A stretch of 59,387 bases of DNA. It comes from Prochlorococcus sp. AG-347-L20 (GTDB lineage: Bacteria > Cyanobacteriota > Cyanobacteriia > PCC-6307 > Cyanobiaceae). A program made the translations under genes and the position numbers. Under the pieces are notes generated by a model. That model ran no database searches. It saw nothing but the letters and a program-made list of their open reading frames with translations, and was not told where the DNA came from. Location: contig QCCP01000012.1 in the NCBI GenBank assembly GCA_003281225.1, positions 1 to 59,387 on the forward strand. Reading direction: 5' to 3'. Shown in pieces: positions 5,162-36,519 of the stretch (position 1 is its first letter; every line of letters starts with the position of its first letter).

Positions 5162-5386
5162 ATGTCCATAGAAAAAGATAATCAATTTTTAAAGAATTTT
5201 ATTGATGAGGCTGGTCTTGACGAAAAAACAAATCTTAATTCTAAGTTAGAAGATTTAGGTTGGGATTCTCTAGCAGTTATTACAGCAATCGCAGTATTTG
5301 ATGAAGTCTATTCAATAACTTTAAATGCTGAAGAATTGGAAGGATGTACAAATTTGCAAGACATCGTTAATTTATCTAAAAGATAA
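5162..5386 (+). CDS. Acyl carrier protein
   Basis: A 74-residue acidic protein with the ACP signature LEDLGWDSLAVITAI. The phosphopantetheine serine is Ser36 in the DSL motif. The length equals that of a free-standing ACP. It directly abuts the KAS III stop codon, so the two genes are almost certainly co-translated. The usual fatty-acid ACP has LGADSLD; the Trp before Asp here and the divergent sequence suggest a specialised ACP rather than the housekeeping one. Its likely loader is the Sfp-type transferase at 3438-4091, and a likely acceptor enzyme is the GNAT protein that follows on the opposite strand. Confidence 0.88.
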   Translation: MSIEKDNQFLKNFIDEAGLDEKTNLNSKLEDLGWDSLAVITAIAVFDEVYSITLNAEELEGCTNLQDIVNLSKR

Positions 5387-20608: not shown

Positions 20609-20687
20609 TACTATTCTTACAAAAAATTTCTACTTAACATATTAACTAATAATCGGTCTTTTATATATTTTTTTTTCAATAAAAGAG

Positions 20688-20693
20688 TATAAT
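20688..20693 (+). promoter_or_regulatory. Candidate -10 element for the dehydrogenase/transketolase operon
   Basis: A perfect TATAAT lies 20 bp upstream of the ATG at 20714 in the 105-bp divergent spacer. No good -35 is visible, only a T-run at the expected distance. In such AT-rich DNA chance matches are common, so this is a candidate only. Confidence 0.4.
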
Positions 20694-20713
20694 TTTCATA
20701 CTATCCAATTCTT

Positions 20714-21775
20714 ATGAACAAAGAAATAAATATAGATAATCAAGAAGTAACTGCAGCAATATTAGTAAATCAGAATCAACCTTTACTAATTGAAAAAATT
20801 AACCTCCCAAAGCAATTAGAGTTAGGTCAAGTTTTTGTAAAATTGCATTCCAGTAGTATTTGTGGCTCTCAAATAGGAGAAATTACTGGAGTAAAAGGTG
20901 AAGATAAATTTTTACCTCATCTCATGGGTCATGAGGGATGTGGAACTGTTATTGCAAAAGGAAATGGTGTTACTACGGTAAAAGAAGGAGATTTAGTTGT
21001 CCTCCATTGGAGAAAAGGTTCAGGAATTCAGGCTGCTACTCCAAAGTATTCTTGGTTAGGTAATACACTTAATGCTGGTTGGGTTACTACATTCAACACT
21101 CATGCAATTATTAGTGAAAATAGATGCACAACAATTCCAAAATCTACAAATAGATACCATGCATCTCTTTTCGGATGTGCAATAACAACTGGTTTTGGGG
21201 TGATAGAAAATAATGCAAAACTAAAAATGGGTGAATCAATTGTTGTTTATGGAGCAGGAGGAGTTGGCTTAAATATCATTCAAGCCGCTAAATTAACTTC
21301 TGCTTATCCAATAATTGCTGTGGATTTATATGAGAGCAGATTAGAAATAGCAAAAAAAGCAGGCGCCACACACTTAATAAAGGGAGAATTATCAGAAGTT
21401 GAAAAAGAGATAAAAAGAATATCCAATAAAGTTGATGTATTCGTTGATAATACTGGTCTCTCAAAAATAATGAAATCTGGTTATGAATTAATTTCAAACA
21501 ATGGGAGACTTGTATTAGTTGGGGTTCCAAATAAAAATGATAATTTACTCATACATACTTTGCCTTTACACTTTGGAAAGAAAATTTTAGGTTCACATGG
21601 TGGAGAAAGCAATCCAGAAAAAGATATCCCAAGATTTCTCAAACTATATAATCAAAACAAGCTTAATCTTGATGATTTAATTAGTACAAGTTATCCCTTA
21701 TCAAAAATAAATGTTGCAATCGATGATATGAGGCAGGGTCTTTCAGCAGGTAGAATAATCATTGATTTTGATTAG
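20714..21775 (+). CDS. Zinc-dependent alcohol dehydrogenase (MDR superfamily)
   Basis: A 353-residue MDR enzyme. The catalytic zinc ligands appear as Cys in SSSICGSQIG, His-Glu in MGHEGCG, and Cys in LFGCAITTG. The coenzyme loop is VYGAGGVGLNII. The four-cysteine structural-zinc lobe is missing; the region contains WRKGSGIQAATPKYSWLG instead. It probably oxidises or reduces a sugar or polyol hydroxyl with NAD(P). It is followed by a small ORF and a two-subunit transketolase, so it may supply or use the ketose made by that enzyme. Confidence 0.85.
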   Translation: MNKEINIDNQEVTAAILVNQNQPLLIEKINLPKQLELGQVFVKLHSSSICGSQIGEITGVKGEDKFLPHLMGHEGCGTVIAKGNGVTTVKEGDLVVLHWRKGSGIQAATPKYSWLGNTLNAGWVTTFNTHAIISENRCTTIPKSTNRYHASLFGCAITTGFGVIENNAKLKMGESIVVYGAGGVGLNIIQAAKLTSAYPIIAVDLYESRLEIAKKAGATHLIKGELSEVEKEIKRISNKVDVFVDNTGLSKIMKSGYELISNNGRLVLVGVPNKNDNLLIHTLPLHFGKKILGSHGGESNPEKDIPRFLKLYNQNKLNLDDLISTSYPLSKINVAIDDMRQGLSAGRIIIDFD

Positions 21776-21820
21776 AATCAAATTATTTAAATTAAAAATT
21801 CAAAAGTAAAAAATAATCAT

Positions 21821-22081
21821 ATGGAAAACTTTACATTTTTAATTATTCTAAGTAATGTTTTAAATGTATCTAAATTTATAAATTTTGTTATTAAAAAAGG
21901 ATATAAATTAATAGGTACATACCTCCAAGATTCAATAAAATTAATTGAAACAGGTTTTAAAAAACTATACGTAATAGATAATTCTATTTATGAAATAATT
22001 AATGCCTTAAAATCAAGAGATCTAAAAGATGCCCCAAAAAGCTATCCGATTAAATGGATGAAAGAATTAGATTTAAATTAG
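21821..22081 (+). CDS. Small protein of unknown function
   Basis: An 86-residue protein that I do not recognise. It has an N-terminal hydrophobic strand (FTFLIILSNV), a second strand-helix region (YKLIGTYLQDSIKLIETG) and a C-terminus YPIKWMKELDLN. The last part resembles the end of the SDR protein at 46172-47119 (YTVKWMKKLKLE). The stop is 1 bp before the transketolase ATG, so it is co-translated with it and probably belongs to the same pathway. It might be a partner of the transketolase pair. No function is assigned. Confidence 0.6.
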   Translation: MENFTFLIILSNVLNVSKFINFVIKKGYKLIGTYLQDSIKLIETGFKKLYVIDNSIYEIINALKSRDLKDAPKSYPIKWMKELDLN

Positions 22082-22082
22082 A

Positions 22083-22937
22083 ATGTCAACTTCCCATCAA
22101 AATAAACACTCAATAACCCTTGACGAGTTAGAAAATATTGCCTTAAAACTGAGAAAGTCTACTATTTTTACATCTTCAAAAGCAAAAATACCTCATTTAG
22201 GTTCATGTTTATCCTGCATGGATATATTAGTTTATTTATATTGGAAAGAATTGAATATTAATCCTCAAAATTTTCGTGCCCATGATAGAGATAGATTTAT
22301 ATTAAGCAAAGGTCATGGAGCTCCTGCTCTTTACCAAGTTCTTGGGGAAATAGGTTTTTTTGATAAAGAATTGCTTAAAAGTTTTGGGGAAAATGATAGT
22401 TTCTTTCATGAACATCCACCTAAGCCAGGTAGTATTCCAGGAATAGAAGCTGCTACAGGATCGCTAGGACATGGCCTACCTATGGCTTTAGGGATGGCGC
22501 TCTCATCAAAAATAAGGGGGTTGAATTTCAAATGCTATGCACTCCTTAGTGATGGAGAATGTAATGAAGGGACTATTTGGGAAGCAGCTATGTTAGCTTC
22601 TTCTCTAAGAGTCAATAACTTAGTAGCAATAATCGACTTTAATAAATGGCAAGCTACTGGTAGAAGCCAAGAAATAATGTCACTAGATCCATTAGTAGAT
22701 AAATGGATTTCTTTTGGCTGGCAAACATTAGAAGTAGATGGTCATAATTTTAATCAACTAGAACAAGCCTTTATAAAAACCAAAAAATCAACTCAAAAAC
22801 CAACTGTTATAGTAGCTCATACTATAAAAGGTAAAGGTATAAGTTTTATGGAGGATAATAATAATTGGCATTATCGAACTCCAAATGAAAGCGAACTAGA
22901 AGCTGCTTTTACTGAATTAAATAATAATGCATTATGA
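22083..22937 (+). CDS. Transketolase, N-terminal (thiamine diphosphate-binding) subunit
   Basis: A 284-residue protein equal to the first part of transketolase. It shows SKGHGAPALYQVL, a GSLGHGLPMALGMAL core and the ThDP/Mg motif GDGECNEGTIWEAA...IDFNKWQATG (GDG with Asn about 28 residues on). Cyanobacteria carry a full-length transketolase for the Calvin cycle; split pairs like this usually act in special sugar pathways. It overlaps the C-terminal subunit gene by 4 bp (ATGA). It may move a two-carbon ketol unit onto an aldose to make a longer or branched ketose, which is inference. Confidence 0.9.
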   Translation: MSTSHQNKHSITLDELENIALKLRKSTIFTSSKAKIPHLGSCLSCMDILVYLYWKELNINPQNFRAHDRDRFILSKGHGAPALYQVLGEIGFFDKELLKSFGENDSFFHEHPPKPGSIPGIEAATGSLGHGLPMALGMALSSKIRGLNFKCYALLSDGECNEGTIWEAAMLASSLRVNNLVAIIDFNKWQATGRSQEIMSLDPLVDKWISFGWQTLEVDGHNFNQLEQAFIKTKKSTQKPTVIVAHTIKGKGISFMEDNNNWHYRTPNESELEAAFTELNNNAL

Positions 22938-23851
22938 GAAATACGTTTGCTAAAGCCATAACTAATTTAGCTAAAAAAAGAGAGGATATTGTTTTACTTT
23001 CAGGAGATATTGGAAACAGAATGTTCGATGAATTTAAAAAAGTTGCTCCAAATCGTTTTTTTAATTGTGGGATAGCCGAAGCTAATATGATGAGTATGGC
23101 AGCAGGTATGGGGATATCAAATTTAAGACCTTTTGTCTATACAATTACACCCTTTACAACTTCAAGATGTTTTGAACAAATTAAAATAGGCGTTGCATAT
23201 CATCAATCTAAAGTAACAATTGTAGGGACTGGCAGTGGATTGTCTTATGCAGAATTAGGACCAACTCATCATTCCTTAGATGATTTAGGAATTTTACGTA
23301 CTATTCCTTCACTAAATATTTATACTCCATGTGATAGCCAAGAATTAGAGTATTGCATAAACCAATCAATTTTAAATAATGGTCCGAATTATATAAGAAT
23401 TGGCAAAAAAGGTGAGAAAAATTTATCCGAATTTGAACCTCTTTCATCTCCAATTGACATTAATTGGATCTCAAGAGGAGGCGAAATTGCAATTATTGGA
23501 TATGGTCCAATTTTATCTGAAGCGGCATCTATAAAAAATGATTTAAAAAAAATAAATAAAGAAATTTCTATACTCAGTGTTATAAAATTTAGTCCTTTCG
23601 ATACAAAGGTGCTTAAAAGCCTAACCAAAAATGGAATTAAGCATCTAATAGTTCTAGAGGAACATTATTCATCTAGTGGCTTATTTTCTAAAATCTCTGA
23701 AATAGTTTTAAAGGAAAACTTAAAATTCGAATCTATAAAGCCCTTCGGTCTAGAAGATAAATTTATAAATAGACTAGGTAAACAAAATTATATGCGAGAA
23801 AAATTTAAAATTGATAGCAGAAGTTTATACAACTACATTGTTTCAATATGA
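22934..23851 (+). CDS. Transketolase, C-terminal (pyrimidine-binding) subunit
   Basis: A 305-residue partner subunit. It contains LSGDIGNRMFDEF, the pyrimidine-domain FNCGIAEANMMSMAAGM with the conserved Glu that activates ThDP, GTGSGLSYAELGPTHHSLDDLG with the expected His, and a C-terminal transketolase domain (VLEEHYSSSGLFSKI). The ATGA overlap with the N-terminal subunit and with the next gene indicates tight co-translation. Together the two subunits rebuild a complete transketolase active site. Confidence 0.9.
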   Translation: MRNTFAKAITNLAKKREDIVLLSGDIGNRMFDEFKKVAPNRFFNCGIAEANMMSMAAGMGISNLRPFVYTITPFTTSRCFEQIKIGVAYHQSKVTIVGTGSGLSYAELGPTHHSLDDLGILRTIPSLNIYTPCDSQELEYCINQSILNNGPNYIRIGKKGEKNLSEFEPLSSPIDINWISRGGEIAIIGYGPILSEAASIKNDLKKINKEISILSVIKFSPFDTKVLKSLTKNGIKHLIVLEEHYSSSGLFSKISEIVLKENLKFESIKPFGLEDKFINRLGKQNYMREKFKIDSRSLYNYIVSI

Positions 23852-24453
23852 GAAATATACACTTGGGAATTGACTTTGATAATACTTTGGTGATTTATGA
23901 CGAAATTTTCTATAATTTAGCCTTAGAGAGAGGATTTATTCACAAAAATATTCAAGCAAACAAGGTTAGCATTAGGGAGGAAATGATCCTCAATGGCAAG
24001 GAAAATGAATTTACTGAAATGCAGGGTGAAGTTTATGGGAATTTAATTAAAAATGCAAAACTACAAAAAGACTTATCACAAACACTAAACTTTTTACTCA
24101 AAAAAGGGATAAAAATTTCTATTGTTAGCCATAAAACTAAATTTCCAATCAAAGGAAAAAAATACGATTTACATCAAGCAGCATTAAATTGGTTAAAAAC
24201 AAATAATTTTTTTGAAGAAAATTTTATTGGGATAGAATTAGAAAATGTATTTTTTGAAGAAACTATTGATCAAAAGATACAAAGGATTAAGGATATTAAT
24301 TGTACCCACTTTATTGATGACTTAGAAAAAGTTCTTGAAAAATTAGATAACGGTATAATAAAAATTCTTTTTACAAAAAAAAATTTTAAAACAAGCGAAA
24401 ACAAAAACTTTCTAACGTTAAATAATTGGAATGAAATTTATGATATTATTTAA
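23848..24453 (+). CDS. HAD-superfamily hydrolase-like protein
   Basis: A 201-residue protein with HAD motif I at the N-terminus (GIDFDNTLVIYDE, DxDxT form), motif II-like SIVSHKTK and an acidic motif IV (HFIDDLEKVLEKL). It is probably a phosphatase for a sugar phosphate, perhaps the product of the upstream transketolase. It overlaps the transketolase gene by 4 bp. The substrate cannot be read from sequence. Confidence 0.75.
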   Translation: MRNIHLGIDFDNTLVIYDEIFYNLALERGFIHKNIQANKVSIREEMILNGKENEFTEMQGEVYGNLIKNAKLQKDLSQTLNFLLKKGIKISIVSHKTKFPIKGKKYDLHQAALNWLKTNNFFEENFIGIELENVFFEETIDQKIQRIKDINCTHFIDDLEKVLEKLDNGIIKILFTKKNFKTSENKNFLTLNNWNEIYDII

Positions 24454-24471
24454 AAATTTATATTTAGATAT

Positions 24472-25140
24472 ATGAAAACTTTAGATGAGCAATATAGTTA
24501 CATGTTTGATGAGAATTATGACCCAACCAGATTAGGTAAAGTAGCATTTTCAAGATGGCGTAAAGATCCAAATTCATTATTGTTTTCTTTATCAAGATAT
24601 AAATTTGTATCTAAATTCTTAGACGGTAAGAATAACATTCTTGAAGCAGGTTGTGGTGATGGTTGGTGTAGCAGGGTTGTTGCAAAAAAATTTAAAAGTT
24701 TAACGTTATCTGATTACGACCCTCAATTCGTAAAAGAAGCTACTAAGGTTAATAGTGATCTTAAAAATATTGAATTCAAAATTAACGATTTCACAAAAGA
24801 TCATATAATTGGAAATGATTATGATGGGTTTTATTGTTTGGATGTTTTAGAACATATCGCAAAAGAAAAAGAGAATAAATTTATTAAAAACATTATTAAA
24901 AGTTGTAGAAAGAATGCTGTTTTTATCTTTGGTATGCCCACTATAGAATCTCAAAAATTAATTAGCCCAGAGAATAGGGATCCAGGTCATATAAACTGTA
25001 AAACAAAAGATGAACTTAAAAAAAGTTTAGAATTAAATTTTGAAATTGTTTTCACTTTATCTATGAACGATGAGCTTATTCATACTGGTAATGGAGATAT
25101 GGCATATTATATTTTTGGAATCTGCTGCATGCCAAAATAG
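24472..25140 (+). CDS. SAM-dependent methyltransferase (class I)
   Basis: A 222-residue methyltransferase. Motif I is ILEAGCGDGWCSRVVAKKF, with an acidic residue in LTLSDYDPQF at the end of strand 2 and YDGFYCLDVLEHIAKEKE in the UbiE/Methyltransf_11-like position. It follows the HAD gene by 18 bp and is likely the last gene of the transketolase operon. The acceptor may be a sugar or a glycan terminus. Confidence 0.82.
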   Translation: MKTLDEQYSYMFDENYDPTRLGKVAFSRWRKDPNSLLFSLSRYKFVSKFLDGKNNILEAGCGDGWCSRVVAKKFKSLTLSDYDPQFVKEATKVNSDLKNIEFKINDFTKDHIIGNDYDGFYCLDVLEHIAKEKENKFIKNIIKSCRKNAVFIFGMPTIESQKLISPENRDPGHINCKTKDELKKSLELNFEIVFTLSMNDELIHTGNGDMAYYIFGICCMPK

Positions 25141-25149
25141 CTCTAATAA

Positions 25150-25302
25150 TTCAAAATCAGATTAGTAAACTATAAAAACTATTTTTTGGGATTTAAAGAT
25201 AATGAGTATTCAGAGTTTATTATAAACATTAATCTAGATTTGTTAAATAAAGGATATAAATTTCGGTACTATAAAAACCCTTTTTATATGTTATATTTTT
25301 AA
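25150..25302 (+). pseudogene. Possible remnant of a protein C-terminus
   Basis: Fifty codons are open with no start codon in the first half. The conceptual peptide ends GYKFRYYKNPFYMLYF and looks protein-like. It occupies most of the 186-bp gap between the methyltransferase and the next oxygenase. It may be the tail of a gene lost by recombination. In DNA this AT-rich a 50-codon open frame could also occur by chance. Confidence 0.25.
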
Positions 25303-25326
25303 ACGTTTTAAATCAATCTGTCTTTA

Positions 25327-26121
25327 ATGGATTATCTTAGTTCACTTAAATCTAATTATGAGAGATTTGGATATCTCAATTTAGATTTTTGTGATTCAGC
25401 TAGAATGCAAAATTTAAAATCTGAGGTTGATAATTTAATTGAGGAAACCTTTTTTATTAGTAAAGAATGGGAATTTATGCATACAAAAGATTTTCACAAA
25501 TATGCTTATGATTGTCAGGTGAAAATAAACAAATTGGATTATCAGAAAATTGTCCTAGAAGAAAATTATGAAATGATTTCCTACATAACAGGAATGAAGA
25601 ATATTTGTCACGAGTCAGTAGTTTTTCTTAGGGCTGTTCGACCTAATAAGAAAACAAAATCTAATGACAATATTGGGTTTCATCGAGAAACAATGTATAG
25701 TGATTCGCCCCAACAAACTGCAAGGGCGCATAATATGTGGATACCTTTAACAATTCCAACAGAAGAAACTGCAGTTAGATACTTTCCTACTTCACATTTA
25801 ATACCTGATGAACTATTAAGTTGGAACGTTGACGAGACTCCTAATTCAATTACTAAAGGTTCATATGGTCATAAGTTAGGAAGTGCATACAAGCCTAAAT
25901 CCATAACCAAAGGTCTTGAAAATTTGGATGAATTCAAAATGTTACCAACCCTTAATCAATTTGCATTATTTAGTGCAATGACTGTTCATGGTGCAGGAGT
26001 TAATAATTCTGACAAGATAAGACTCTCATTAAGCATGGCAATGATTGACTCAAACCAAATAACATACAATAAACCATATACTGCAGCTAATGGAAGACCT
26101 CATTACTCCAAATTGAATTAA
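25327..26121 (+). CDS. Phytanoyl-CoA dioxygenase-like 2OG/Fe(II) oxygenase
   Basis: A 264-residue protein of the PhyH-type oxygenase fold. The iron ligands are probably His119-x-Glu121 (GFHRETMY) and His221 (TVHGAGVNNSDKIRLSLS), the latter followed by an Arg that would bind 2-oxoglutarate. A Glu in place of Asp in the HxD motif is unusual but known in the fold. The SPQQTARAHNMWIPL stretch also fits. It may hydroxylate a sugar, an acyl group or a lipid-linked intermediate. It is next to a second, differently folded oxygenase. Confidence 0.75.
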   Translation: MDYLSSLKSNYERFGYLNLDFCDSARMQNLKSEVDNLIEETFFISKEWEFMHTKDFHKYAYDCQVKINKLDYQKIVLEENYEMISYITGMKNICHESVVFLRAVRPNKKTKSNDNIGFHRETMYSDSPQQTARAHNMWIPLTIPTEETAVRYFPTSHLIPDELLSWNVDETPNSITKGSYGHKLGSAYKPKSITKGLENLDEFKMLPTLNQFALFSAMTVHGAGVNNSDKIRLSLSMAMIDSNQITYNKPYTAANGRPHYSKLN

Positions 26122-26180
26122 AAATAAATTTTTATTTACTCATTAATTTATGTTATCTTGACTATAAATTATAAAAAAAG

Positions 26181-26909
26181 TTGAATATTCTTAAGTACAA
26201 TTATCAAAGTCTTGAAGAGTTAAATTATTCAGACATAAAAAAAGCGTTAAATAATAAATCTTTATCATCTATTGCAATTGTCTCAAATTTTGCAACTAAA
26301 AGTGAGGTTTTAAAGTTAAAAGAATTATTTTATAGTTCCCCTTCTAAACTTTATAACGGATGGCAAAAAGCTGAAGATAATTCTAAGCATTTTTATAGAC
26401 AAATTCAAATTAATCCACAATCTATAGTTAAGCAAATTACTGCAAGAGCTCAGTTTTTCCTTTGGAACAAACCACCTAAATTAATTACAGAAATTGCACA
26501 AAGACTTTTTCATTTAAAGGAATTATTTGATCAAAGGGAAAAAATAGACATACTTTCAAAACCATCAAATGGAATCTATTCCATGGCATCTTTGCAACAT
26601 TATCCTATAGGAGGAGGTATGCTTGGAGAGCACTCTGACCCCGACAATGCTATTGGAGGTTTACATTGTTTATTGTGTCTTTCAGACCGCAAAAAAGATT
26701 ATGTAAAGGGAGGTTTATTTCTGCGAGACAACGGAACTAATAAATTAATTGATGTAGAAGATTATTGGCATAGTGGTGATGTAATAGTTTTCAATTCAAC
26801 TCAACTAAGACATGGAGTTAATCCCATCGATCCTGAAAAAAAATTTAGTTGGGAGCAATCTAAAGGCAGATTAATATTTTCTCCTGTAATTGTAAAAGAA
26901 ACTATTTGA
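26181..26909 (+). CDS. 2OG/Fe(II) oxygenase-like protein
   Basis: A 242-residue protein beginning at a TTG codon (26181). Iron ligands appear as His151-x-Asp153 (GEHSDPDNAIGG) and His211 (QLRHGVNPID), with a basic residue in SKGRLIFSPV for 2-oxoglutarate. The segment YVKGGLFLRDNG lies between them, as in P4H-like oxygenases. Sequence similarity to its neighbour is low, so the pair did not arise by a recent duplication. The substrate is unknown, and sugar modification is inferred from the island. Confidence 0.75.
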   Translation: MNILKYNYQSLEELNYSDIKKALNNKSLSSIAIVSNFATKSEVLKLKELFYSSPSKLYNGWQKAEDNSKHFYRQIQINPQSIVKQITARAQFFLWNKPPKLITEIAQRLFHLKELFDQREKIDILSKPSNGIYSMASLQHYPIGGGMLGEHSDPDNAIGGLHCLLCLSDRKKDYVKGGLFLRDNGTNKLIDVEDYWHSGDVIVFNSTQLRHGVNPIDPEKKFSWEQSKGRLIFSPVIVKETI

Positions 26910-26937
26910 AAATCTTTTTATTGTTAAAAAATAATTT

Positions 26938-26958
26938 GTTGAAATCATTTTTTTCAAC
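26938..26958 (+). terminator. Possible weak terminator hairpin
   Basis: GTTGAAA and TTTCAAC form a 7-bp stem around a 7-nt T-rich loop, 28 bp after the oxygenase stop, followed by a T-rich stretch. The stem is AT-rich, so termination strength is doubtful. Confidence 0.3.
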
Positions 26959-27031
26959 TTGTTTTCTATTTAATAGATTCTAAAATTAAATAAATATTCA
27001 ATAAAATCTTATGAAAAATCTAAAATAAATT

Positions 27032-28768
27032 ATGGAATATAAAATATCTCCTCCAGCAGAATGGATAAGAACTTCATCGGATTCTAGTAAAATTGATATT
27101 TATGAATTCATAACAAGTAAATATAAAGACAACGATATACTTTTCAAAGTAATAAAAAATAATGGCAAGATTAAAGAATTAACTAAAGAAAAGTGTCAAA
27201 ATTATTCTCTAAATTTAGCAAAGCAAATTCAAGATGATTGCTCTTCAAAAAATTCAAAAAAACAGCTCAAAATTTTTGGAGTGATTGGAGCATCTGAAGA
27301 ATCAATTATTCTTATGCTTAGCAGTCTTTTATTGGGAGCGCATCATTGCATTTGCTTCGAAGACCTTTCAGAAGAAGCAATAATCCAAAGAATAAATATA
27401 TTCAAACCTGATATAATTTTATCTAGAAAAACTTTAAGTAAAAAAATTCAAAAAGTACTTGATTTATCAAAGAAGAAAAATTTAAAAGCATTAACAATAA
27501 ACTTAGATTCAAAAAAAATTATAGTTAAAGATTTTGAAAAAAAATTTTACTACTCAAAACATAATCTGTTCAGTCTTTTCACTTCTGGTTCAACTGGCTT
27601 ACCAAAAGCAATAACTCACGGAGTATGGGATTATTTAAAATATGCTGAGTATACGACAAACTATTTTTTTGGGATTAGGAAAGGATCCATAATCTTTACA
27701 TCAGTTGATGCAGGATGGATAAATGGGCACACATATGCTTTTTATGGCCCTCTTTTATTAGGAGCCATTTCCATTATTAACGAAAATCCAATATCTATAT
27801 CTGTCCCAAAATTACTTGGTAAATATTTAGGTAAAATCAAACCTGATTGTTTCTATACATCAGTAACAATGTTTAGACTTATAAAAAGTCTTGTAGATCA
27901 AGATAAATCTATAATTGATTATGCAAATCAAGAAATAGGACTTGATAGGATTGGATCATGCGGGGAACCCTTAGCAAATAATGTTGGGGATTGGGCTAGA
28001 ACATTTTTCAAACCGAAAAGAGAATCTATCGTTAATACATATTTTCAAACAGAGACAGGAGGAGTTCTTGTAGCTCCTCGTGATGAAGACAATCCACCAA
28101 AAAATTATGCATGCGTTGGCAAACCAAGATTAGAATTAGGTATGGCTATTGCAAAAGATATATTGGACAAAACTGAAATTGAAAGAGATAGAATTGACCC
28201 AAATGAGATATTAGTTTGTAATCATTGGGATGGGATCTTCAAAGAGATAATATCAGATAAAAAATCTAAATATTTCACTCAATCTGGTTTTTTCAGATTG
28301 CATGATGTTGGATTCTTCGATGAGGATGGGTATCTATTTATTGGTGGCCGAAGCGATGATGTAATTAATGTTTCTGGCCATAGGATATCAACTTCCGAAA
28401 TAGAAAGTATTAGTATTTCATTAGAAGGAGTTATTGAAGCATGTGCAGTTGCAACAGAAGATAAAATTTGTGGATCAAGAGTAATTCTATATTTCTCTTC
28501 AAAAGTAACTGAGGAAGATTATTTAGAAAATTTGAAAAAGGAAATTAATAATATAATTAAAACTAAACTTACCAAATACCATATCCCTAAAGATATATTT
28601 CATTTTCAAAACTTACCAAAGACTAAAAGCGGTAAAATAATGAGAAGAATCATGAGAGAATTACAAGATAATGATTTATCTGACAAAAAGAGAGATTATT
28701 CTACATTGGCAAATAAAGAAGAATTTTTAATTTGTAGAAAAAATTATCTAAAGTATCAAAAGAATTAA
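27032..28768 (+). CDS. AMP-forming acyl-CoA synthetase/ligase
   Basis: A 578-residue full-length ANL-superfamily enzyme. The phosphate loop is FTSGSTGLPKAITHG near residue 186, followed by YFQTETGG (A5), HDVGFFDEDGYLFIGGRSDDVIN (A7-A8) and the catalytic Lys in KTKSGKIMRR (A10). It activates a carboxylic acid as an acyl-adenylate and transfers it to CoA or a carrier thiol. Overall it looks like the acetyl-CoA synthetase branch, which suggests a small acid. A hexapeptide acyltransferase and an ACP-like protein follow, so the activated acyl group is probably loaded on that carrier and then placed on a sugar. This is inference from gene order. Confidence 0.87.
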   Translation: MEYKISPPAEWIRTSSDSSKIDIYEFITSKYKDNDILFKVIKNNGKIKELTKEKCQNYSLNLAKQIQDDCSSKNSKKQLKIFGVIGASEESIILMLSSLLLGAHHCICFEDLSEEAIIQRINIFKPDIILSRKTLSKKIQKVLDLSKKKNLKALTINLDSKKIIVKDFEKKFYYSKHNLFSLFTSGSTGLPKAITHGVWDYLKYAEYTTNYFFGIRKGSIIFTSVDAGWINGHTYAFYGPLLLGAISIINENPISISVPKLLGKYLGKIKPDCFYTSVTMFRLIKSLVDQDKSIIDYANQEIGLDRIGSCGEPLANNVGDWARTFFKPKRESIVNTYFQTETGGVLVAPRDEDNPPKNYACVGKPRLELGMAIAKDILDKTEIERDRIDPNEILVCNHWDGIFKEIISDKKSKYFTQSGFFRLHDVGFFDEDGYLFIGGRSDDVINVSGHRISTSEIESISISLEGVIEACAVATEDKICGSRVILYFSSKVTEEDYLENLKKEINNIIKTKLTKYHIPKDIFHFQNLPKTKSGKIMRRIMRELQDNDLSDKKRDYSTLANKEEFLICRKNYLKYQKN

Positions 28769-28862
28769 CAATCATCAGTTAAGCAATGTCAAATATGTTT
28801 TATCCTCCAATTGGTTTATTTTGTAATTTACAATTATCAAGCTTCCATATAATTTTTAGTAA

Positions 28863-29495
28863 ATGACTTTAAAATTATTAATAGCTGGAACAGGATATTT
28901 AGAGCTTCTTGATATTGCAAATAATGGAATTGCTCCAACTGGAGAAGAATTTGAAGTACTAGGCTTCCTTGATGACAATCCTGAAAATTTAAAGAGAGAT
29001 TTACAAGGTTACAAAATAATTGGGGGTTTTTCTGACCTATGTAAATATCCAGATGCTTATGTTATCAACTCTATTAGTAGATCTACTTCTTTAAGAGAAG
29101 AAACTACTAAAATTCTTGCGAATTATGGCGCTAAATTCACATCAATTATACACAAAACATCTATTCTTAATAATTGCCATATTGGGAATAATTCATTTAT
29201 TGGTCCATATGTAGTAATTGAACCCAATGTACAGATCAAAGAAAATAACTGCATATTATCTTTTTCGGTTATAGCCCATGACTCTATTATCAAAGAAACA
29301 TGTTTTATAGGTTATAACTGTTCAATTTTGGGATATGTAGAACTAGAAAAAAAATCATATATAGGATCTTCAAGTGTGATCTTACCTAATTCAAAAATTG
29401 GTGAAGGTTCAGTGATAGGAGCTAATTCAACTATAATTAGGGACGTTAAACCATACTCTACTTTTTCTCCTCCATTATCAAAAAGAATAAGATGA
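28863..29495 (+). CDS. NeuD/PglD-like sugar O/N-acyltransferase (left-handed beta helix)
   Basis: A 210-residue protein with a nucleotide-binding-like N-terminal domain (LLIAGTGYLELLDIA, then VLGFLDDNPENL) and a C-terminal hexapeptide-repeat beta helix: residues about 95-205 have I/V every six residues (NNCHIGNNSFIGPYVVIEPN, ending IIRDVKPYSTFSPP). This is the NeuD/PglD layout, enzymes that acetylate an amino sugar or sialic acid. The catalytic His is likely in FSVIAHDS. It overlaps the ACP-like gene by 4 bp (ATGA), so the acyl donor may be the carrier protein instead of free acetyl-CoA. Confidence 0.83.
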   Translation: MTLKLLIAGTGYLELLDIANNGIAPTGEEFEVLGFLDDNPENLKRDLQGYKIIGGFSDLCKYPDAYVINSISRSTSLREETTKILANYGAKFTSIIHKTSILNNCHIGNNSFIGPYVVIEPNVQIKENNCILSFSVIAHDSIIKETCFIGYNCSILGYVELEKKSYIGSSSVILPNSKIGEGSVIGANSTIIRDVKPYSTFSPPLSKRIR

Positions 29496-29776
29496 TTAAA
29501 TTAAAAATAATTGAAAGTATAGTGCATAAATCTGTTAAGGAAATTTTAAAATCAAAATTTGATAAAATTGAGAATTTAGAAAATTTTATTGGAATAGAAT
29601 CAGAATATGAGAGTATCGAAATAATTCAGATACTTTCTCTTATTGAAGAAGAAATGGAGCATGAAGGTCTTCAAAATTATGACCTTTTAGAGATAGTTGC
29701 TACTTATGAGACTCTTACTTTAGAAGAATTAATAAGAGTAATCGTATCAAGAATTAATTCAAAAATTACTAAATAA
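29492..29776 (+). CDS. Acyl-carrier-protein-like protein
   Basis: A 94-residue acidic, helical protein. The segment FIGIESEYESIEIIQILSLI aligns with the ACP helix II region, with Ser41 in the position of the phosphopantetheine serine. The usual D-S-L is E-S-I here, so modification needs testing. The gene is translationally coupled to the NeuD-like acyltransferase and downstream of an AMP-ligase, which is the arrangement expected for an acyl-loading carrier. The Sfp-type transferase at 3438-4091 could prime it. Confidence 0.65.
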   Translation: MIKLKIIESIVHKSVKEILKSKFDKIENLENFIGIESEYESIEIIQILSLIEEEMEHEGLQNYDLLEIVATYETLTLEELIRVIVSRINSKITK

Positions 29777-29949
29777 TAATGTTAAATATTTAATTTATTA
29801 ATTTAATAAAATAAGCCTTTTTTTGATTTATTTAAATTAACAAATTAGATTAGTAAAAATAAAAAATATTTATAATAAAAATTAGTAATAATAAAAAGTC
29901 TTTTTTACAAAGATTGATAATATATAATAACTTTTTATTTATAAAAAAT

Positions 29950-30876
29950 ATGGGACTTAATGCACAAGGACTTAAACTAATATTGGAAGAAGATAAGCAT
30001 AAAAAAATTAATGGAAGAGTTTTATGCCTTGGCCAAAATACTGTTCATGTTAAACCTAATTTATTACAAGAATTAGCAGATGAATACAAAAAAGATTTAC
30101 CTTCAAAATGGTTTGAGGACCAAAATCATGTTGATAAAGAAACCAAAACTGCTAAAAGAGTTGAATATCCCTGTATAAAACAATCATCTCTTTTTAAAAT
30201 ATTTTTTCCTGATATCAAAGAGTTTGCTGTTCTAGATTGTTCGAATTATGAAGGAGCTTCAGTAATTGCAGATTTAAATCTGCCTTTTTCTAAAGAATTG
30301 TCTAGTCAAGAGAATATGTGGGATTTTATATTTGATGGTTCAGTTCTAGATAATATATTCAACCCAACGGAAGCACTAATAACAATCCATAGATTCTTAA
30401 AACCATTTGGAAGAGTTGTAAGTGTCAATTCTTTCAACTTTTTACCTGGTGCTATGCTTTCAATTTCTTGTGAATGGTTTTACTCATTTTTCGCACAGAA
30501 TAATTATTTAAGTAACAAGGTATACCTTAATGCTCTAAGAGTAAGTCCTGAAGTGAACGCCTACAATAATATATTTGACTGGTTTATATATTCCCCGGTA
30601 TTTACCCCTAAAAAAACTTTTGATGCAGGTAAAGCAGCAAATGATACTTATAAAAGATATTCATCTATGAATGTTCTTGTTGCTGCTGAAAAAGGTTCAG
30701 ACAATAATCAAATTAAGTTTCCCCAAAATCTCCAATATTGCTTTGATCAAACTCAAATTTGGCATAAAGAGGAATTAATTACAAAATCAAGAGATTTACC
30801 AAATTTATATGAACCTAGATCAGCAGATATTGAAGTATTTGATTCTGATCATTATAAATATATCGGTAGATTCTAG
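29950..30876 (+). CDS. SAM-dependent methyltransferase-like protein
   Basis: A 308-residue protein from the ATG at 29950; an upstream TTG at 29914 would add 12 residues that look less natural. The part FDGSVLDNIFNPTEALITIHRFLKPFGRVVSV matches the post-motif region of class I methyltransferases, and RVLCLGQNTVHV could be part of strand 1. Motif I (GxGxG) is not obvious, so the SAM pocket may be altered. FAVLDCSNYEG fits strand 2. It belongs to the aminotransferase module by position. Confidence 0.5.
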   Translation: MGLNAQGLKLILEEDKHKKINGRVLCLGQNTVHVKPNLLQELADEYKKDLPSKWFEDQNHVDKETKTAKRVEYPCIKQSSLFKIFFPDIKEFAVLDCSNYEGASVIADLNLPFSKELSSQENMWDFIFDGSVLDNIFNPTEALITIHRFLKPFGRVVSVNSFNFLPGAMLSISCEWFYSFFAQNNYLSNKVYLNALRVSPEVNAYNNIFDWFIYSPVFTPKKTFDAGKAANDTYKRYSSMNVLVAAEKGSDNNQIKFPQNLQYCFDQTQIWHKEELITKSRDLPNLYEPRSADIEVFDSDHYKYIGRF

Positions 30877-31032
30877 AGAATCATAGTATTACTAATAACT
30901 TTTATTTGGGCAATTCGTACTATTTTTTATATTGTATTAATACATGAGATTTAAAAATTAACTAAAATCACATGATTTCATCCAAAAGATTTATAAAAAT
31001 AGTAATATTTATTAAATAATTTAATTAAAGTC

Positions 31033-32367
31033 TTGTTTGAAATATTAAGAACCTTCCCTAATGACCCTATACCTGAAAAGATTGTTTCAGGTGAAGGAAT
31101 GTACTTAAATACAAAATCAGGAAAAAAATATTTTGACATGACAGGTGGCTTTACTGCTCATGCAGTTCTTGGATGGGGTAATAAACAAATAATAGATTCA
31201 ATACACAGACAACTTTGTAAAGTTCCACATATCGACTACAAAACTTTTATTGATGAAAACAGGACTAAATTAGCATCAAAGTTACTTGAAAAAAGTATTC
31301 ACGGACTTGACAGGCTTTTTTTGTGCGGAGGCTCTGGAGGAGAAGCGTGCGAAGCGGCTATGCATTTGAGTTATCAAGCTCACTTTTTAAATGGGTTAAC
31401 CGAAAAACAATGGTTTATAAGTAGAACTCAAAGTTATCATGGTGCAACTACTGATTGCATGGCAATTGGGGAAAGGCCTAATTTAGACTTTTATAATCCT
31501 TTATTTCCCAGAAAAAGGGCTAAAGTTGAGGAACATAATAAATTTAGACATTTAAAAAAAGGTGAAACAGAAAAAGAATATGGGGTGAGATGTGCTTTAG
31601 AGTTAGAAAAAAAGATTCTTGAAATCGGTCAGGAAAAAGTATGTGCTTTTATTGGAGAAACAATTATGGGAGGACTTGTTGGTGATGTACCACCAACTGA
31701 TAATTATTGGCTTGAAATAAGAAAAGTTTGCGATAAATATAATATACATTTGATTGTTGATGAAGTATGGTGTGGTTGTGGTGTATCAGGTAAAAACTTT
31801 TGTATTGATTGGGACAGGGTTAAACCAGATTTCATATTTCTGGGTAAAACCTTTGCAGCAGGATACATGCCAATAAGTGGAGTTGTAACTAGTTCAGACA
31901 TTGAGAATATAATAAAGTCCACATCAGGCAGGGTAGAAAACTCAACCACTTTTCAAGGTCATTCAGCATGTGTCGCCGCAGCATTAGCATGCCAAGAAAT
32001 CATTAATCAAGAGGGATTTCTAGAAGAAGTTTCTAATAAAGGTAAAAAGCTGAGAGATTCACTTAATCAGATTTTAAAAGATCATGATTTTTATAAAAAT
32101 GTTCGAGGGAGAGGTATGAGAAATTCACTTGAATACTCATGCAAAGAACAAAACTTATTTGGTATTGCTGTATCGGATTATATGAAGGAGAAATTTTCGA
32201 CTCTAATTAACGGGAAATGGCATAGATTCACTTTTTCAAATTCAATGCTCATATCTGATGAGGAATTAGATAGTTTTATTGATCAATTTTCATATTCATT
32301 TAAAAAAATCGCAAGAGATTGGGATGATAAGTTTATAGAGCAAGTATCAAATAAAAACTTTTTCTAA
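31033..32367 (+). CDS. Class III (glutamate-1-semialdehyde/ornithine type) aminotransferase
   Basis: A 444-residue fold-type I PLP enzyme. It shows LCGGSGGEACEAAMHL (phosphate-binding), QSYHGATTDCMA, the cofactor Asp in LIVDEVWCGCGVSG and the Schiff-base Lys in FLGKTFAAGYMPISG. It starts at a TTG codon, since the first ATG is at residue 23 and would cut the fold. Sugar aminotransferases of polysaccharide loci usually belong to the DegT group, so a class III enzyme here suggests an unusual amine, possibly on an acyclic or terminal carbon. It is followed 5 bp later by a C-methyltransferase. Confidence 0.87.
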   Translation: MFEILRTFPNDPIPEKIVSGEGMYLNTKSGKKYFDMTGGFTAHAVLGWGNKQIIDSIHRQLCKVPHIDYKTFIDENRTKLASKLLEKSIHGLDRLFLCGGSGGEACEAAMHLSYQAHFLNGLTEKQWFISRTQSYHGATTDCMAIGERPNLDFYNPLFPRKRAKVEEHNKFRHLKKGETEKEYGVRCALELEKKILEIGQEKVCAFIGETIMGGLVGDVPPTDNYWLEIRKVCDKYNIHLIVDEVWCGCGVSGKNFCIDWDRVKPDFIFLGKTFAAGYMPISGVVTSSDIENIIKSTSGRVENSTTFQGHSACVAAALACQEIINQEGFLEEVSNKGKKLRDSLNQILKDHDFYKNVRGRGMRNSLEYSCKEQNLFGIAVSDYMKEKFSTLINGKWHRFTFSNSMLISDEELDSFIDQFSYSFKKIARDWDDKFIEQVSNKNFF

Positions 32368-32372
32368 AATAA

Positions 32373-33662
32373 ATGTTAAATCAAACAATTAAAAATATTC
32401 ATAAGAAACATTTAGGTTGTCGTTTATGTGGATCTTCGCTAATAAGTGCAGTAATCCCAATGCATCCAATTCCAATTGGAGAACATTACTCAAAAGAAAA
32501 TCTCATCACAGATGCACCAAGATACCCAATAGATATATATCAATGCTCTGTTTGTAAAGCAGTACAAACTAATGACGATATTGATAGTGACTTTTTATGG
32601 AAGGACTATACTTACTTCTCTGGACAAACCGATAAAATCGTAAAGCATTTTGATGAATTTTCTAATTACATAACTAAAACCTACGATATTCAAGATAAAA
32701 ATGTTTTAGATATTGGAAGTAATGATGGTTCTTTATTAAAACAATTTAAATATAAGGGTTACAAAGTGCAGGGAATAGATCCAGCCCAAACAGTAGTTGA
32801 AGAAGCAAGAAGAAATGGAATCCCTACCGAATTAGGACTTTTTAATAACGTAAACAGCGAAAAATTTTTTAAAAACAAAAAATATTCAATAATAACTGCC
32901 TTTAATGTTTTTGCTCATTCCCATGAAATGCAAAATATGGGAGAAACTGTGAGTAAGCTTTTATCCGATGAGGGTATATTTTGCTTTGAGGTTCAATACT
33001 TAGTAGACATAGTAAATAAAAATATACTAGGAACCTTTTTTCACGAACACATGGTTCATTACTCTTATGAGAGTGCAAGTCATTTTTTAAAACAATTTAA
33101 TCTTGAGATTATAGATTATGAAAGAAATAATATTCAACATGGGAGTATTATATTCATAGCGGTTAAAAAGGAATCTTCAAAATGTTTAACTAAAAAAAAT
33201 CAATCAAAAATAAATATTTTAATTAGTGAAGAAAAAATTATTGGATTATCAAATACCAATTGGGCGGCAAACTTCAACAGAAATATAGCATTAACAAGAT
33301 CAAAGGTTTTAGATTTTATTTCAGGAAACAAAATAAAAGACAATAGCTTAGCTGGTTACGGAGCCGCAAGATCGGGTCCAACTATTGCAATTCAATATGA
33401 GATTGACAAATATATTGGAGTTTTATTAGATGATCATAAGCAAAAAAAAGGCATGTACGCACCTTTCAAATCTTTAATGGTTTTAGGAACAGAAAATTTA
33501 AACTATAAAAAATATCCTATTACTGTAATTTTAGCCTATATACATTTCAAACCAATTATTAAAAAGCATATTAACTACTTAAATGATGGAGGGACATTCA
33601 TAATATTATGGCCTTCTTTTAATATCATAAATAAAGAAAATTTTGTGGAATTTATAAATTAA
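32373..33662 (+). CDS. Nucleotide-sugar C-methyltransferase with zinc-binding N-domain (second copy)
   Basis: A 429-residue protein of the same architecture as that at 11655-12878. It has an N-terminal zinc cluster (CRLCGSS then CSVCKAVQ), the SAM motif LDIGSNDGSLLKQFKYKG, HEHMVHYSYESAS, and a C-terminal domain with GYGAARSGPTIA. It would C-methylate a keto-sugar. The two copies differ clearly in sequence, so they serve different sugars. Its stop overlaps the next gene's ATG by 1 bp (TAATG). Confidence 0.85.
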   Translation: MLNQTIKNIHKKHLGCRLCGSSLISAVIPMHPIPIGEHYSKENLITDAPRYPIDIYQCSVCKAVQTNDDIDSDFLWKDYTYFSGQTDKIVKHFDEFSNYITKTYDIQDKNVLDIGSNDGSLLKQFKYKGYKVQGIDPAQTVVEEARRNGIPTELGLFNNVNSEKFFKNKKYSIITAFNVFAHSHEMQNMGETVSKLLSDEGIFCFEVQYLVDIVNKNILGTFFHEHMVHYSYESASHFLKQFNLEIIDYERNNIQHGSIIFIAVKKESSKCLTKKNQSKINILISEEKIIGLSNTNWAANFNRNIALTRSKVLDFISGNKIKDNSLAGYGAARSGPTIAIQYEIDKYIGVLLDDHKQKKGMYAPFKSLMVLGTENLNYKKYPITVILAYIHFKPIIKKHINYLNDGGTFIILWPSFNIINKENFVEFIN

Positions 33663-34699
33663 TGAATAAGATAAATTTAGCTTTTATTGGTTGTGGTTTT
33701 GTAGCTCAACAATGTCATCTCCCTTGTTATGTTTCTCTTGATTATGTAAATATTCATACTTTATGCGACCCCATAGCAGATTTAAGAGATAAATTAGCTA
33801 ACCAATACGCTGCGAAGTTCCAATATAATTCTCATGAAGAAATTAAAAATATTGAAGATATTGATGCTTTCATAGTTACATTGCCTAGGAAACTAAGCTT
33901 TCATGTTCTCAAGTATTTAATAAAATTTAGAAAGCCTATTTTTACGGAAAAACCATTATGCCTTGATACCAAAAATGCATTAATACTTAAAGATTTAGCG
34001 ATTAAATATTCAACATATTTAAAAATTGGTTATATGAAATCTCATGATAATTCAATAAATCATTTAAAAGAAATAATTAATGATTCATATATGACAAACC
34101 AAAAAATAAAGTTAATTAATGCTTATTCATTTATGGGCGATTCTTACTGTAGTCCATTCGGTGATTTTAAAGGTAAAGATTCTCCTAAAATAAATTTTAA
34201 AGAAGAATCCCTTCCAGATTGGTTGGATTCAAATAATTTTTATGGCTATGAACAGTTTATTAACGTTTTCTCACATATAACTCACATAATAGAGGATATC
34301 TTTAAAAAAGATATTAATATAATTTCTTGCAAAGTTAACGAATATGGTGAAGGAATCATTTTGAGCGAGATCAATGGTATACCTCTTTCACTCTCTCTCT
34401 GTAGGGGGGAACAAAATAAATGGGAAGAAGGAATAGATATTAAATTTAACAAAAAAATAATATCAATAAAATTTGCCGCTCCATTTTTAAGAAATATTCC
34501 CGCCACTATATACATAAATGAAGGTACAGAATTTAATAGAAATATTGAAATTAGGCCCACTTGGAGTTGGGCATTCAAAAATCAAGCAATTGATTTCTGT
34601 AAAAAAGTTAACGACGGTCATTTTGACTACTCCGAACTTAATCAAGCAATAAGACAAATAGAATTTGCAGAAAAAATCTTTAAAAATTATATAAATTAA
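33662..34699 (+). CDS. Gfo/Idh/MocA-family oxidoreductase
   Basis: A 345-residue NAD(P)-dependent oxidoreductase. The Rossmann motif FIGCGFVAQQCHLP is at the N-terminus, followed by TEKPLCLDTKNA (the EKP motif) near residue 98. Family members oxidise or reduce sugar carbons (C2, C3 or C5) or amino-sugar ketones. Located between a C-methyltransferase and an RmlD-like reductase, it probably acts on a nucleotide sugar of this module. The specific reaction is unknown. Confidence 0.82.
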   Translation: MNKINLAFIGCGFVAQQCHLPCYVSLDYVNIHTLCDPIADLRDKLANQYAAKFQYNSHEEIKNIEDIDAFIVTLPRKLSFHVLKYLIKFRKPIFTEKPLCLDTKNALILKDLAIKYSTYLKIGYMKSHDNSINHLKEIINDSYMTNQKIKLINAYSFMGDSYCSPFGDFKGKDSPKINFKEESLPDWLDSNNFYGYEQFINVFSHITHIIEDIFKKDINIISCKVNEYGEGIILSEINGIPLSLSLCRGEQNKWEEGIDIKFNKKIISIKFAAPFLRNIPATIYINEGTEFNRNIEIRPTWSWAFKNQAIDFCKKVNDGHFDYSELNQAIRQIEFAEKIFKNYIN

Positions 34700-34703
34700 A
34701 TCT

Positions 34704-35531
34704 ATGTCTCTTTTACTAATTGGTGGAAAAAGTTCCCTGGCAAAAAGTCTAAAAGAATTATTGAACAAAAAAAAAATATCTTTTACTGAAACACAAAAAG
34801 AGCGTAATTCAAAATTATACCTAGATCTAAGCGATATAAATTCTTTTGATAATATTCCTGCTAGTACAAAAAAAGCCATCTTATTCGCTGGTATTACCAA
34901 TATAAAAAATTGTGAAAAGAATAAGTCCCTGGCTTACAAAATAAACTATGAAAATTCAAAAATTCTTATTAATAAGCTAAATAATCTAGGGGTAAGTTGT
35001 TTATTCATTTCATCAAGTTCTGTCTTTAGTAATAAAACGTTTAAAAATGGTGAAACAGATATTAAAGATCCAGATACTTACTATGGAATATTAAAAGCTA
35101 AACTAGAAGACAAAATTATTGATCAAAATCTAAATACTATTTTAAGACTAACTAAAGTAATAATGCCTGATATGGCATTGCTATCAAATTGGATTAAAGA
35201 TTTAAAAAATAATAAACAGATAAGCGCCTACAAAGATTTATATTTATCACCCATATCTAATATTTCATTCAATGCAATGATATATAAGTGGATCAGTTTA
35301 GGCTTCTCGGGTGTACTGCATCTTTCTTCAGATCAACAAATTTCTTATTTTGAATTTATAAAATTTATAGCAAATAACTTAGGATTAAATATTTCTCTAA
35401 TAAATCCAGAGAATTCAACCAAAAATATAAAATTTAATCCAATAAAGTCTTATCTAGAATGCAATTCAGAGAATAGTAAATTATTGTTATTAGAAGAAGA
35501 ATTAAAAATAATAAGTAAATATTATGAATAA
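34704..35531 (+). CDS. RmlD-like SDR (dTDP-4-dehydrorhamnose reductase-like)
   Basis: A 275-residue short-chain reductase with an N-terminal loop LLIGGKSSLAKSL in place of the strict GxxGxxG. It also has FAGITNIKNCEKNKSLAYKIN, FISSSSVFSNKT and the active-site tyrosine-lysine pair in DTYYGILKAKLE. It reads like RmlD or a related 4-keto-reductase. The stop overlaps the following gene by 8 bp. It may reduce a keto sugar of the aminotransferase module. Confidence 0.75.
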   Translation: MSLLLIGGKSSLAKSLKELLNKKKISFTETQKERNSKLYLDLSDINSFDNIPASTKKAILFAGITNIKNCEKNKSLAYKINYENSKILINKLNNLGVSCLFISSSSVFSNKTFKNGETDIKDPDTYYGILKAKLEDKIIDQNLNTILRLTKVIMPDMALLSNWIKDLKNNKQISAYKDLYLSPISNISFNAMIYKWISLGFSGVLHLSSDQQISYFEFIKFIANNLGLNISLINPENSTKNIKFNPIKSYLECNSENSKLLLLEEELKIISKYYE

Positions 35532-36519
35532 AACAGAAAGATTTAATAAAGTTATTGAGCTAATTAATAATCAATATTCTTATATTAAAGATATCGAAAT
35601 ATGTAACGAGGGGAATAACAGTCAAGTTTTCCAATTAATTCACGAAAGTGGAGAAAAGCATGCACTAAAACTATTTCCCGAAAAACGAAGCGAAGATCAT
35701 CGATTAAAAAGAGAAGTTTTATTCCTAAATTTTCTTAGAAAAATAAATTACAAATATTGTCCATTAATAAAAACTTGTGATGAAAAACTGAATTTTATCC
35801 TTTTATCTTGGATTGAAGGTGAGAAAGTAAAAAGACCTCTTCAACATGACTTTAATGAATTCACTTATTTTTATCAAATATTAAATAAAAATAAAAACTT
35901 TGGATCTAATATACCTAGAGCATCTGAAGCTATATTCACTCTTAACAAACTCTATAGTCATGTATCTAATTTGATATGTGATTATAAATTTATTTTTAAA
36001 AAAAAATCTAAATATTTTGAAATTGAATTCAACATAATTAAACAATTAAAAGCTGATCTTTATTTTGCGAAGAGAACCTTATCAAAAAAACAAAAACAAG
36101 TCACTAATTTTTCAAATCATAAAATCCTAAGTCAATCAGATATTGGATTTCATAATATTTTAAAAAATAATAATAAACTATATTTTATAGATTTCGAGTA
36201 TGCTGGTTGGGACAGCCCAATGAAACTTTATAGTGATTTCATATTACAACCAAGTGGTTATTACACATTTAAAAAACCAGTTATTTTTTTCACAAAAATT
36301 CTTAGAGAAATAATATATACAAGACATATCAAAGATGAATTATATGAGTATTTATTATTGTATAGATTAAGATGGATATTAATAAAAATGAATTTATTAA
36401 GAAATAAACGAACCAAAACAAATAACAATGAAAAAAAAATGCTAGATGATACTATCAATTACTCAAAATCAAGCCTTATTTACATTGATAAAAATAAAGA
36501 AAATTTTTTTAAATTTTAG
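35524..36519 (+). CDS. Aminoglycoside-phosphotransferase-like kinase
   Basis: A 331-residue protein of the APH/choline-kinase fold. The catalytic loop is SQSDIGFHNIL (the family form is HxDxxxxN; here Gln-Ser replaces His-x before Asp), and the metal-binding Asp is in YFIDFEYAGWDSP. The N-lobe has HALKLFPEKR, with the nucleotide-binding Lys. It could phosphorylate a sugar, an amino alcohol or a lipid-linked group. It is the last gene of the module. The altered loop residue is modest and does not remove the catalytic Asp. Confidence 0.72.
   Translation: MNKTERFNKVIELINNQYSYIKDIEICNEGNNSQVFQLIHESGEKHALKLFPEKRSEDHRLKREVLFLNFLRKINYKYCPLIKTCDEKLNFILLSWIEGEKVKRPLQHDFNEFTYFYQILNKNKNFGSNIPRASEAIFTLNKLYSHVSNLICDYKFIFKKKSKYFEIEFNIIKQLKADLYFAKRTLSKKQKQVTNFSNHKILSQSDIGFHNILKNNNKLYFIDFEYAGWDSPMKLYSDFILQPSGYYTFKKPVIFFTKILREIIYTRHIKDELYEYLLLYRLRWILIKMNLLRNKRTKTNNNEKKMLDDTINYSKSSLIYIDKNKENFFKF

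Follow-up and report, generated by a model that had tools for sequence, protein, structure and literature searches.

The window, that is, the whole stretch of DNA analysed here, is the 59,387-nucleotide contig QCCP01000012.1 of Prochlorococcus sp. AG-347-L20 (G+C 27.9%), one contig (C12) of a 1.65 Mb assembly whose same-genus relatives measure 0.8-1.8 Mb. Three neighbouring genes on its forward strand encode an AMP-forming ligase similar to acetyl-coenzyme A (CoA) synthetase (Acs), a left-handed beta-helix acyltransferase of the NeuD/PglD type and a small carrier-like protein (Table 1), and a preliminary description of the sequence had seen in them the set needed to activate an acid, hold it on a carrier and place it on a sugar. 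The three genes are present as described there, and the overlap of the NeuD-like and carrier reading frames by ATGA is confirmed; the ligase gene ends 94 bp before the NeuD-like gene and is not coupled to it, and no terminator-like site was found between the two. In Pfam, the ligase scores above the cut-off for both AMP-binding (93 bits) and AMP-binding_C (47.5 bits), and its top NCBIfam match is the acetate--CoA ligase family TIGR02188, at 290.1 bits, below the cut-off of 724.95. The NeuD-like protein reaches 142.4 bits with TIGR03570, slightly below the cut-off of 160.8 (next family, 65.9 bits), and has PglD structures as its top match in the PDB (E ~6e-13). For the carrier, no match was found in Pfam, NCBIfam or PHROGs at E<=0.01; its Ser41 (codon 29612-29614) lies within the motif E-S-I.

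Relatives of the ligase were sought in 400 genomes of the same taxonomic family (E<=1e-70), which yielded eight loci in seven genomes, the window's own included. Two of the relatives are in G124 (L035 and L037, 61% and 43% identical) and the others in G227 (L036, 58%), G004 (L027, 50%), G292 (L039, 38%), G383 (L040, 38%) and G280 (L038, 34%). In the tree, the eight ligases cluster together (97/91), separate from 19 Acs sequences (98/95), with the caveat that some end branches are long and such joins are possibly false. A displaced housekeeping Acs was considered and rejected, the genome having its own Acs on another contig (C2), separated from the ligase in the tree; the two are 35% identical over residues 168-559. 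Across the phylum, 124 of 244 genomes match the ligase at E<=1e-80, and WWQTETG, the motif of ordinary Acs, is present in each of the best 14 (the window's own not counted). The 10 plasmid matches listed, out of 1024, are 30.0-31.6% identical, nine of them annotated as acetate--CoA ligase and one without annotation; viral-contig searches gave no match, and genome-contig searches with the carrier and the ligase gave nothing beyond one remote locus (L028), which was left unused. The ligase of L027 (8331-10766) has about 235 extra C-terminal residues ending in CxxC...CxxC, a region without any family above its cut-off.

The eight group members were compared with 13 cyanobacterial Acs at positions numbered after the Salmonella enterica enzyme. 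T311N, W413Y and W414F are found in all eight ligases and in none of the 13 Acs, and the same holds for a change of V386 to C or M and for the replacement of G164-G165. R191, an Arg in 13/13 Acs, is replaced throughout the group (K, E, E, S, K, I, L and F; Lys in the window), and the stretch from S167 to TSGSTG measures 70-87 residues in the group against 95-96 in Acs. The adenylation residues D500, R515 and K609 are kept in all eight ligases, as is G524, and R526 in seven. According to an excerpt of a published study (PMC10455477), R191 contacts the CoA phosphates in Acs, replacement of the matching residue by Lys or Gln in an archaeal enzyme lowers the catalytic efficiency with CoA by ~3000- and 12000-fold, and Trp414, nearly fully conserved in Acs, sets the acyl range. 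Because the pocket and R191 changes occur in 8/8 members, and in the light of these reports, the acid bound by the ligase group is most likely not acetate, and CoA is most likely not used in the manner of Acs; N311, together with an F414 that remains bulky, points to a small polar acid as the predicted substrate.

A clear carrier gene lies within about 1.3 kb of the ligase gene at six of the eight loci, the seventh (L027) being weak in this respect and the eighth (L036) standing at a contig end. The carrier begins 1 bp 3' of the ligase at L039 and L040, overlaps or abuts it at L037 (the start is uncertain), is separated from it by one gene and 1.0-1.3 kb at L035 and L038, and in the window is 0.7 kb away with the NeuD-like gene between. 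At L027, the gene overlapping the ligase combines a weak carrier-like first part (6.3 and 11.6 bits) with a phosphopantetheinyl transferase (PPTase), which scores 44.2 bits with PF01648, above the cut-off, and 43.1 bits with TIGR00556, just below it. With PF00550, which has a cut-off of 20.8 bits, the carriers reach 25.8 bits at L037, 20.7 and 20.3 bits, just below, at L039 and L038, and 15.2 bits at L035, with no match in the window (L040 was left out). A first carrier profile was too insensitive, finding at E<0.01 only the window's carrier among the eight ligase loci. Leave-one-out profiles, which include the carriers of the other loci and exclude the tested one, gave 35.7 bits for the window, 24.7 for L035 (scored on the whole locus, the 1.4 kb flanks cutting through the gene), 16.7 for L037, 37.8 for L038, 21.0 for L039 and 21.9 for L040. 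The best of 620 reading frames in 33 ordinary Acs loci, all with WWQTETG, scored 4.7 bits, the flanks of these controls (0.4-1.5 kb) being partly shorter than the carrier distance at L035 and L038. The ligase group is thus carrier-linked, and carrier loading is its likely function.

The carrier of L037 is followed by a DltB-like gene (TIGR04091, 37.7 bits against a cut-off of 375) and, farther on, by a weakly SGNH-like gene, so that L037 (9439-15797), a cyanobacterial locus, resembles a Dlt set whose ligase is of the Acs type.

The preliminary description called the window's carrier an acyl carrier protein from its motif alone, and regarded ESI in place of DSL as unusual; relatives with an invariant E40-S41-I42 now back the first statement, and the motif, though indeed there, is standard in the carrier's family (3/3 close relatives) and not a one-off oddity. 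A search of 98 genomes found relatives in G007 and G042, and a three-sequence profile run over 400 genomes added G423, at 107 bits, together with five weak matches of 17-25 bits, one each on the own contig C2, in G438, G333 and G437, and a second one in G042; at the G437 locus (L054), the profile scan gave no clear carrier match. The three close relatives (L004, L005 and L050) each overlap an FkbH gene (TIGR01686, 209.9, 210.3 and 212 bits; cut-off 146.65), by ATGA at L005 and by way of a mechanically chosen TTG start at L004 and L050. The window's carrier is 35-37% identical to these FkbH-linked proteins, and the four share 17 invariant columns, E40-S41-I42 among them. Comparison with a profile of ten other carriers aligned ES with DS (E 2.1e-5, probability 76.9); a single-sequence structure prediction was unusable (mean predicted local distance difference test score, pLDDT, 43). 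The possibility that ESI is a degenerate motif of a dead carrier was discarded, the three closest relatives having the same ESI before FkbH genes. Within this small carrier family, Ser41 is the serine that is conserved, and its phosphopantetheinylation is predicted.

FkbH is a known loader of a carrier. The search that detected it in G007, G042 and G423 found none in the genome of the window, and because the close relatives of the carrier are FkbH-linked and no FkbH was detected in its own host, the carrier seems to have been taken over from a system of the FkbH type. The PPTase named in the preliminary description as the modifying enzyme is likewise present (PF01648, 34.4 bits), yet it is not specific to the module: it is the single match of a PF01648 search of the genome, and is for this reason probably a housekeeping enzyme. 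That it is the only one is not certain, since the same search finds none in 2/10 genomes (the window's own being among the ten), one of them rated 100% complete.

Two further cassettes bear on the association of the three functions. At L051 of G438, four genes follow one another, encoding a carrier, a FabG-like short-chain dehydrogenase/reductase (SDR), a MenE-like ligase and a protein of the NeuD type (TIGR03570, 137.7 bits), and on contig C2 of the window's own genome (L053, 4439-6697) there is a second carrier with an SDR and a MenE-like ligase, beside which no NeuD was seen. Both ligases fall outside the Acs group, and a functional link among ligase, carrier and NeuD is suggested because two different ligase branches pair with carrier and NeuD. 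The L053 set adjoins a member of the 290-300-residue family described below and, as judged by eye, a deacetylase-like gene.

For the NeuD-like enzyme, a background was drawn from the 29 best-scoring NeuD loci of the taxonomic family, a non-random sample, of which 24 yielded an alignment row. The catalytic His is present in the window and in all 24 rows. At the position of PglD N118, the window has Leu, Asn being found in 23/24 rows and Leu in no other of 26 rows; the residue before the catalytic His is Ala (Asp or Glu in 23/24), and the position of PglD H134 is Phe (His or Ser in 23/24). The nearest of the 24 background sequences (L081, in G228) has Ser, Ala and Phe at the three positions, and the NeuD of L051 keeps Asn at the first. 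The Ala-His-Asp of the window is that of LpxA, an acyl-carrier-dependent enzyme (alignment with PDB 7okc).

Taken together, these data make it somewhat probable (about 0.55) that the trio is a module for the carrier-dependent acylation of a surface polysaccharide, with a route from ligase to carrier to NeuD to sugar. The comparison among loci speaks for the pairing of ligase and carrier and for the loss of the acetate pocket and the CoA arginine of Acs; as to the acid, the modification of Ser41 and the hand-over from carrier to NeuD, we infer that the ligase would adenylate a small, probably polar acid (for example, a hydroxy acid) with ATP, that the carrier, through the phosphopantetheine arm of its Ser41, would receive the acyl group in place of CoA, and that the NeuD-like enzyme would transfer this group to a sugar, probably a nucleotide sugar acylated at an amino or hydroxyl position.

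A number of observations weigh against this route. At the ligase, the alignment around R191 is rich in gaps, with basic residues close by; R584, another CoA contact of Acs, does not discriminate, since it is variable among the group members and the 13 Acs themselves have V or G there; and MACS and CBAL bind CoA through other residues (excerpt of PMC10455477). At the carrier, the NeuD-like gene separates it from the ligase, its subfamily differs from that of the carriers next to the other ligases, which are mostly of the EWDS type, and PF00550 gives no match at E<=1 for it or for its relatives at L004 and L005. No carrier was found at L036, where the ligase gene begins 208 bp from the contig end, and the exact trio was seen in no other genome examined. 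As for the acyltransferase, the combination of Ala and Phe occurs also at L081/L100, where the carrier profile found no carrier in 15 kb (L081 adjoins an aminotransferase), and Ala before the catalytic His is found in PDB 4m9c. Because L081 shares Ala and Phe without such a carrier, no conclusion on the donor is drawn from the NeuD residues, and the active site, once considered as a mark of carrier use, was dropped: it is not diagnostic of the acyl donor. Of the activating, holding and placing roles claimed at the outset, the pairing of ligase and carrier is thus backed by the carrier-linked group and the altered CoA site, and the part in which NeuD draws on the carrier is the one on which the active site is silent.

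It is conceivable, if unlikely, that ligase and carrier work as a pair whose carrier-bound acyl group serves other enzymes of the island (oxygenases, methyltransferases or the aminotransferase) or another product, while NeuD uses acetyl-CoA. The NeuD active site is compatible with such separate use, and most solved relatives among the matches listed are named acetyltransferases. Moreover, a PhyH-type oxygenase (29 bits, Pfam cut-off 22) is encoded upstream of the ligase, and carrier-bound substrates are known for relatives of the PhyH family. The ATGA overlap between the NeuD-like and carrier genes and the separate carrier, ligase and NeuD cassette of G438 argue in the other direction. It is improbable that the ligase makes free acyl-CoA for NeuD, the carrier being a relic, or in an unrelated step, after the loss of its partner FkbH: the ligase does belong to the CoA-ligase superfamily, and the carrier's close relatives pair with an FkbH that is undetected here, but the CoA-site arginine is gone throughout the ligase group, carriers recur beside its members, and Ser41 with 16 further columns is invariant in four carriers and the frame is open.

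The region around the trio is a surface-polysaccharide island (Table 1). Directly 3' of the carrier, a 320-residue protein (29914-30876) has a methyltransferase match of 16.8 bits, below the cut-off. A zinc alcohol dehydrogenase, an 86-residue protein without a family and a transketolase in two genes (22083-22937 and 22934-23851) occupy 20714-23851, a segment which we take to resemble the "sporadic carbohydrate cluster" of NCBI; a TIGR04324 match of 21 bits at 25327-26121 is the lone one of its kind pointing that way. A first module, with β-ketoacyl-acyl carrier protein synthase III and a WDSL carrier (PF00550, 32.9 bits), lies at 4205-5386, adjoining the PPTase. Proteins of a 290-300-residue family, GNAT-like by eye, recur near carrier genes in several islands; the five other members match the window's by phmmer (E 1e-14 to 2e-32), and the family could be another carrier-dependent acyltransferase.

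Table 1. Coordinates of the three genes, the PPTase, the island genes and the 290-300-residue family
Feature	Position	Strand	Length (aa)	Remark
AMP-forming ligase, Acs-like	27032-28768	+	578	proposed carrier loader
NeuD/PglD-like acyltransferase	28863-29495	+	210	proposed acyl transfer to sugar
Small carrier-like protein	29492-29776	+	94	Ser41, proposed phosphopantetheine site
PPTase	3438-4127	-		would have to modify the carrier
NeuB	51485-52543			PF03102, 198.6 bits
Cytidylyltransferase	47218-47922			island gene
UDP-sugar dehydrogenase	37947-39302			island gene
ABC transporter	39308-41083			island gene
Sugar kinase/nucleotidyltransferase	43676-45163			island gene
Nucleotide-sugar pathway	9267-11092			island genes
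2-oxoglutarate oxygenases	25327-26909			island enzymes upstream of ligase
Aminotransferase	31033-32367			island enzyme
290-300-residue family, window member	5405-6304	-		no Pfam match above cut-off
290-300-residue family, L005	5779-6684, 8324-9223
290-300-residue family, L004	8345-9220
290-300-residue family, L050	9611-10498
290-300-residue family, L053	2602-3477

Among known systems, Dlt uses a ligase (DltA) to load a small carrier (DltC) for the decoration of a surface polymer, together with DltB, a membrane-bound O-acyltransferase (MBOAT), and DltD. L037 resembles it in that a relative of the window's ligase stands there with a carrier and a DltB-like gene; in the window, by contrast, the transferase is NeuD-like, no MBOAT match was found by Pfam among genes of at least 150 residues at 19538-36519, and the ligase scores higher against Acs than against DltA (290 versus 71-72 bits). 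With Acs itself, the ligase shares sequence motifs and the catalytic Lys609 and Asp500, and differs in its score far below the equivalog cut-off, its altered acid pocket and Arg191, its length (578 versus ~660 residues) and the carrier genes beside it. The carrier has the same ESI as the FkbH-linked carriers, but adjoins NeuD and an Acs-like ligase instead. PglD and other NeuD sugar N-acetyltransferases have family and catalytic His in common with the window's enzyme, in which Asn118 is exchanged for Leu, the Glu or Asp before the His for Ala, and His134 for Phe.

The closest parallel is the tetronate module of Vibrio cholerae O1 (RfbK/RfbL/RfbO, wbe), in which RfbO is the transferase; as there, ligase, carrier and transferase genes stand together in a polysaccharide island, a likeness of RfbK, RfbL and RfbO by description only. 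RfbL activates an acid and putatively attaches it to CoA or to the carrier RfbK (2025 paper); according to an excerpt of PMC3441752, perosamine receives the acid on its amino group, and a wbeL deletion strain lacks the O1 antigen. In a published tree, RfbL groups with AasS of V. harveyi, whereas the window's ligase belongs to the Acs branch. The carrier-bound donor, which according to the preliminary description would be new, is hence of a kind already proposed for RfbL/RfbK, with Dlt as an analogue; what appears new, as far as the open-licence literature goes, is an Acs-derived, carrier-linked ligase branch that would serve different acyltransferases (NeuD-like and DltB-like). No publication describing such a branch in polysaccharide islands was found among the papers listed from that literature, a weak negative, and the excerpt of PMC11898729 has nothing on acyl genes.

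More broadly, and only tentatively, a branch of Acs in marine picocyanobacteria may have swapped CoA for dedicated carriers and, as a small-acid:carrier synthetase, may feed interchangeable acyltransferases (cytosolic NeuD-like or membrane DltB-like MBOAT) and so vary the surface glycans in hypervariable islands, an FkbH (glyceryl-type) carrier having been rewired in the window to the ligase and the NeuD having become carrier-dependent. If so, a textbook CoA enzyme, acetyl-CoA synthetase, would be the origin of a branch that loads carriers and can be read from its residues (N311, Y413, F414 and no R191), a signature that makes it both searchable and testable. What has been proposed for V. cholerae tetronate, with a carrier step that is still "putative" in the 2025 paper, would be extended to a second ligase family, and it would be concrete how ocean cyanobacteria could place unusual acyl groups on their surface sugars, which are visible to phages.

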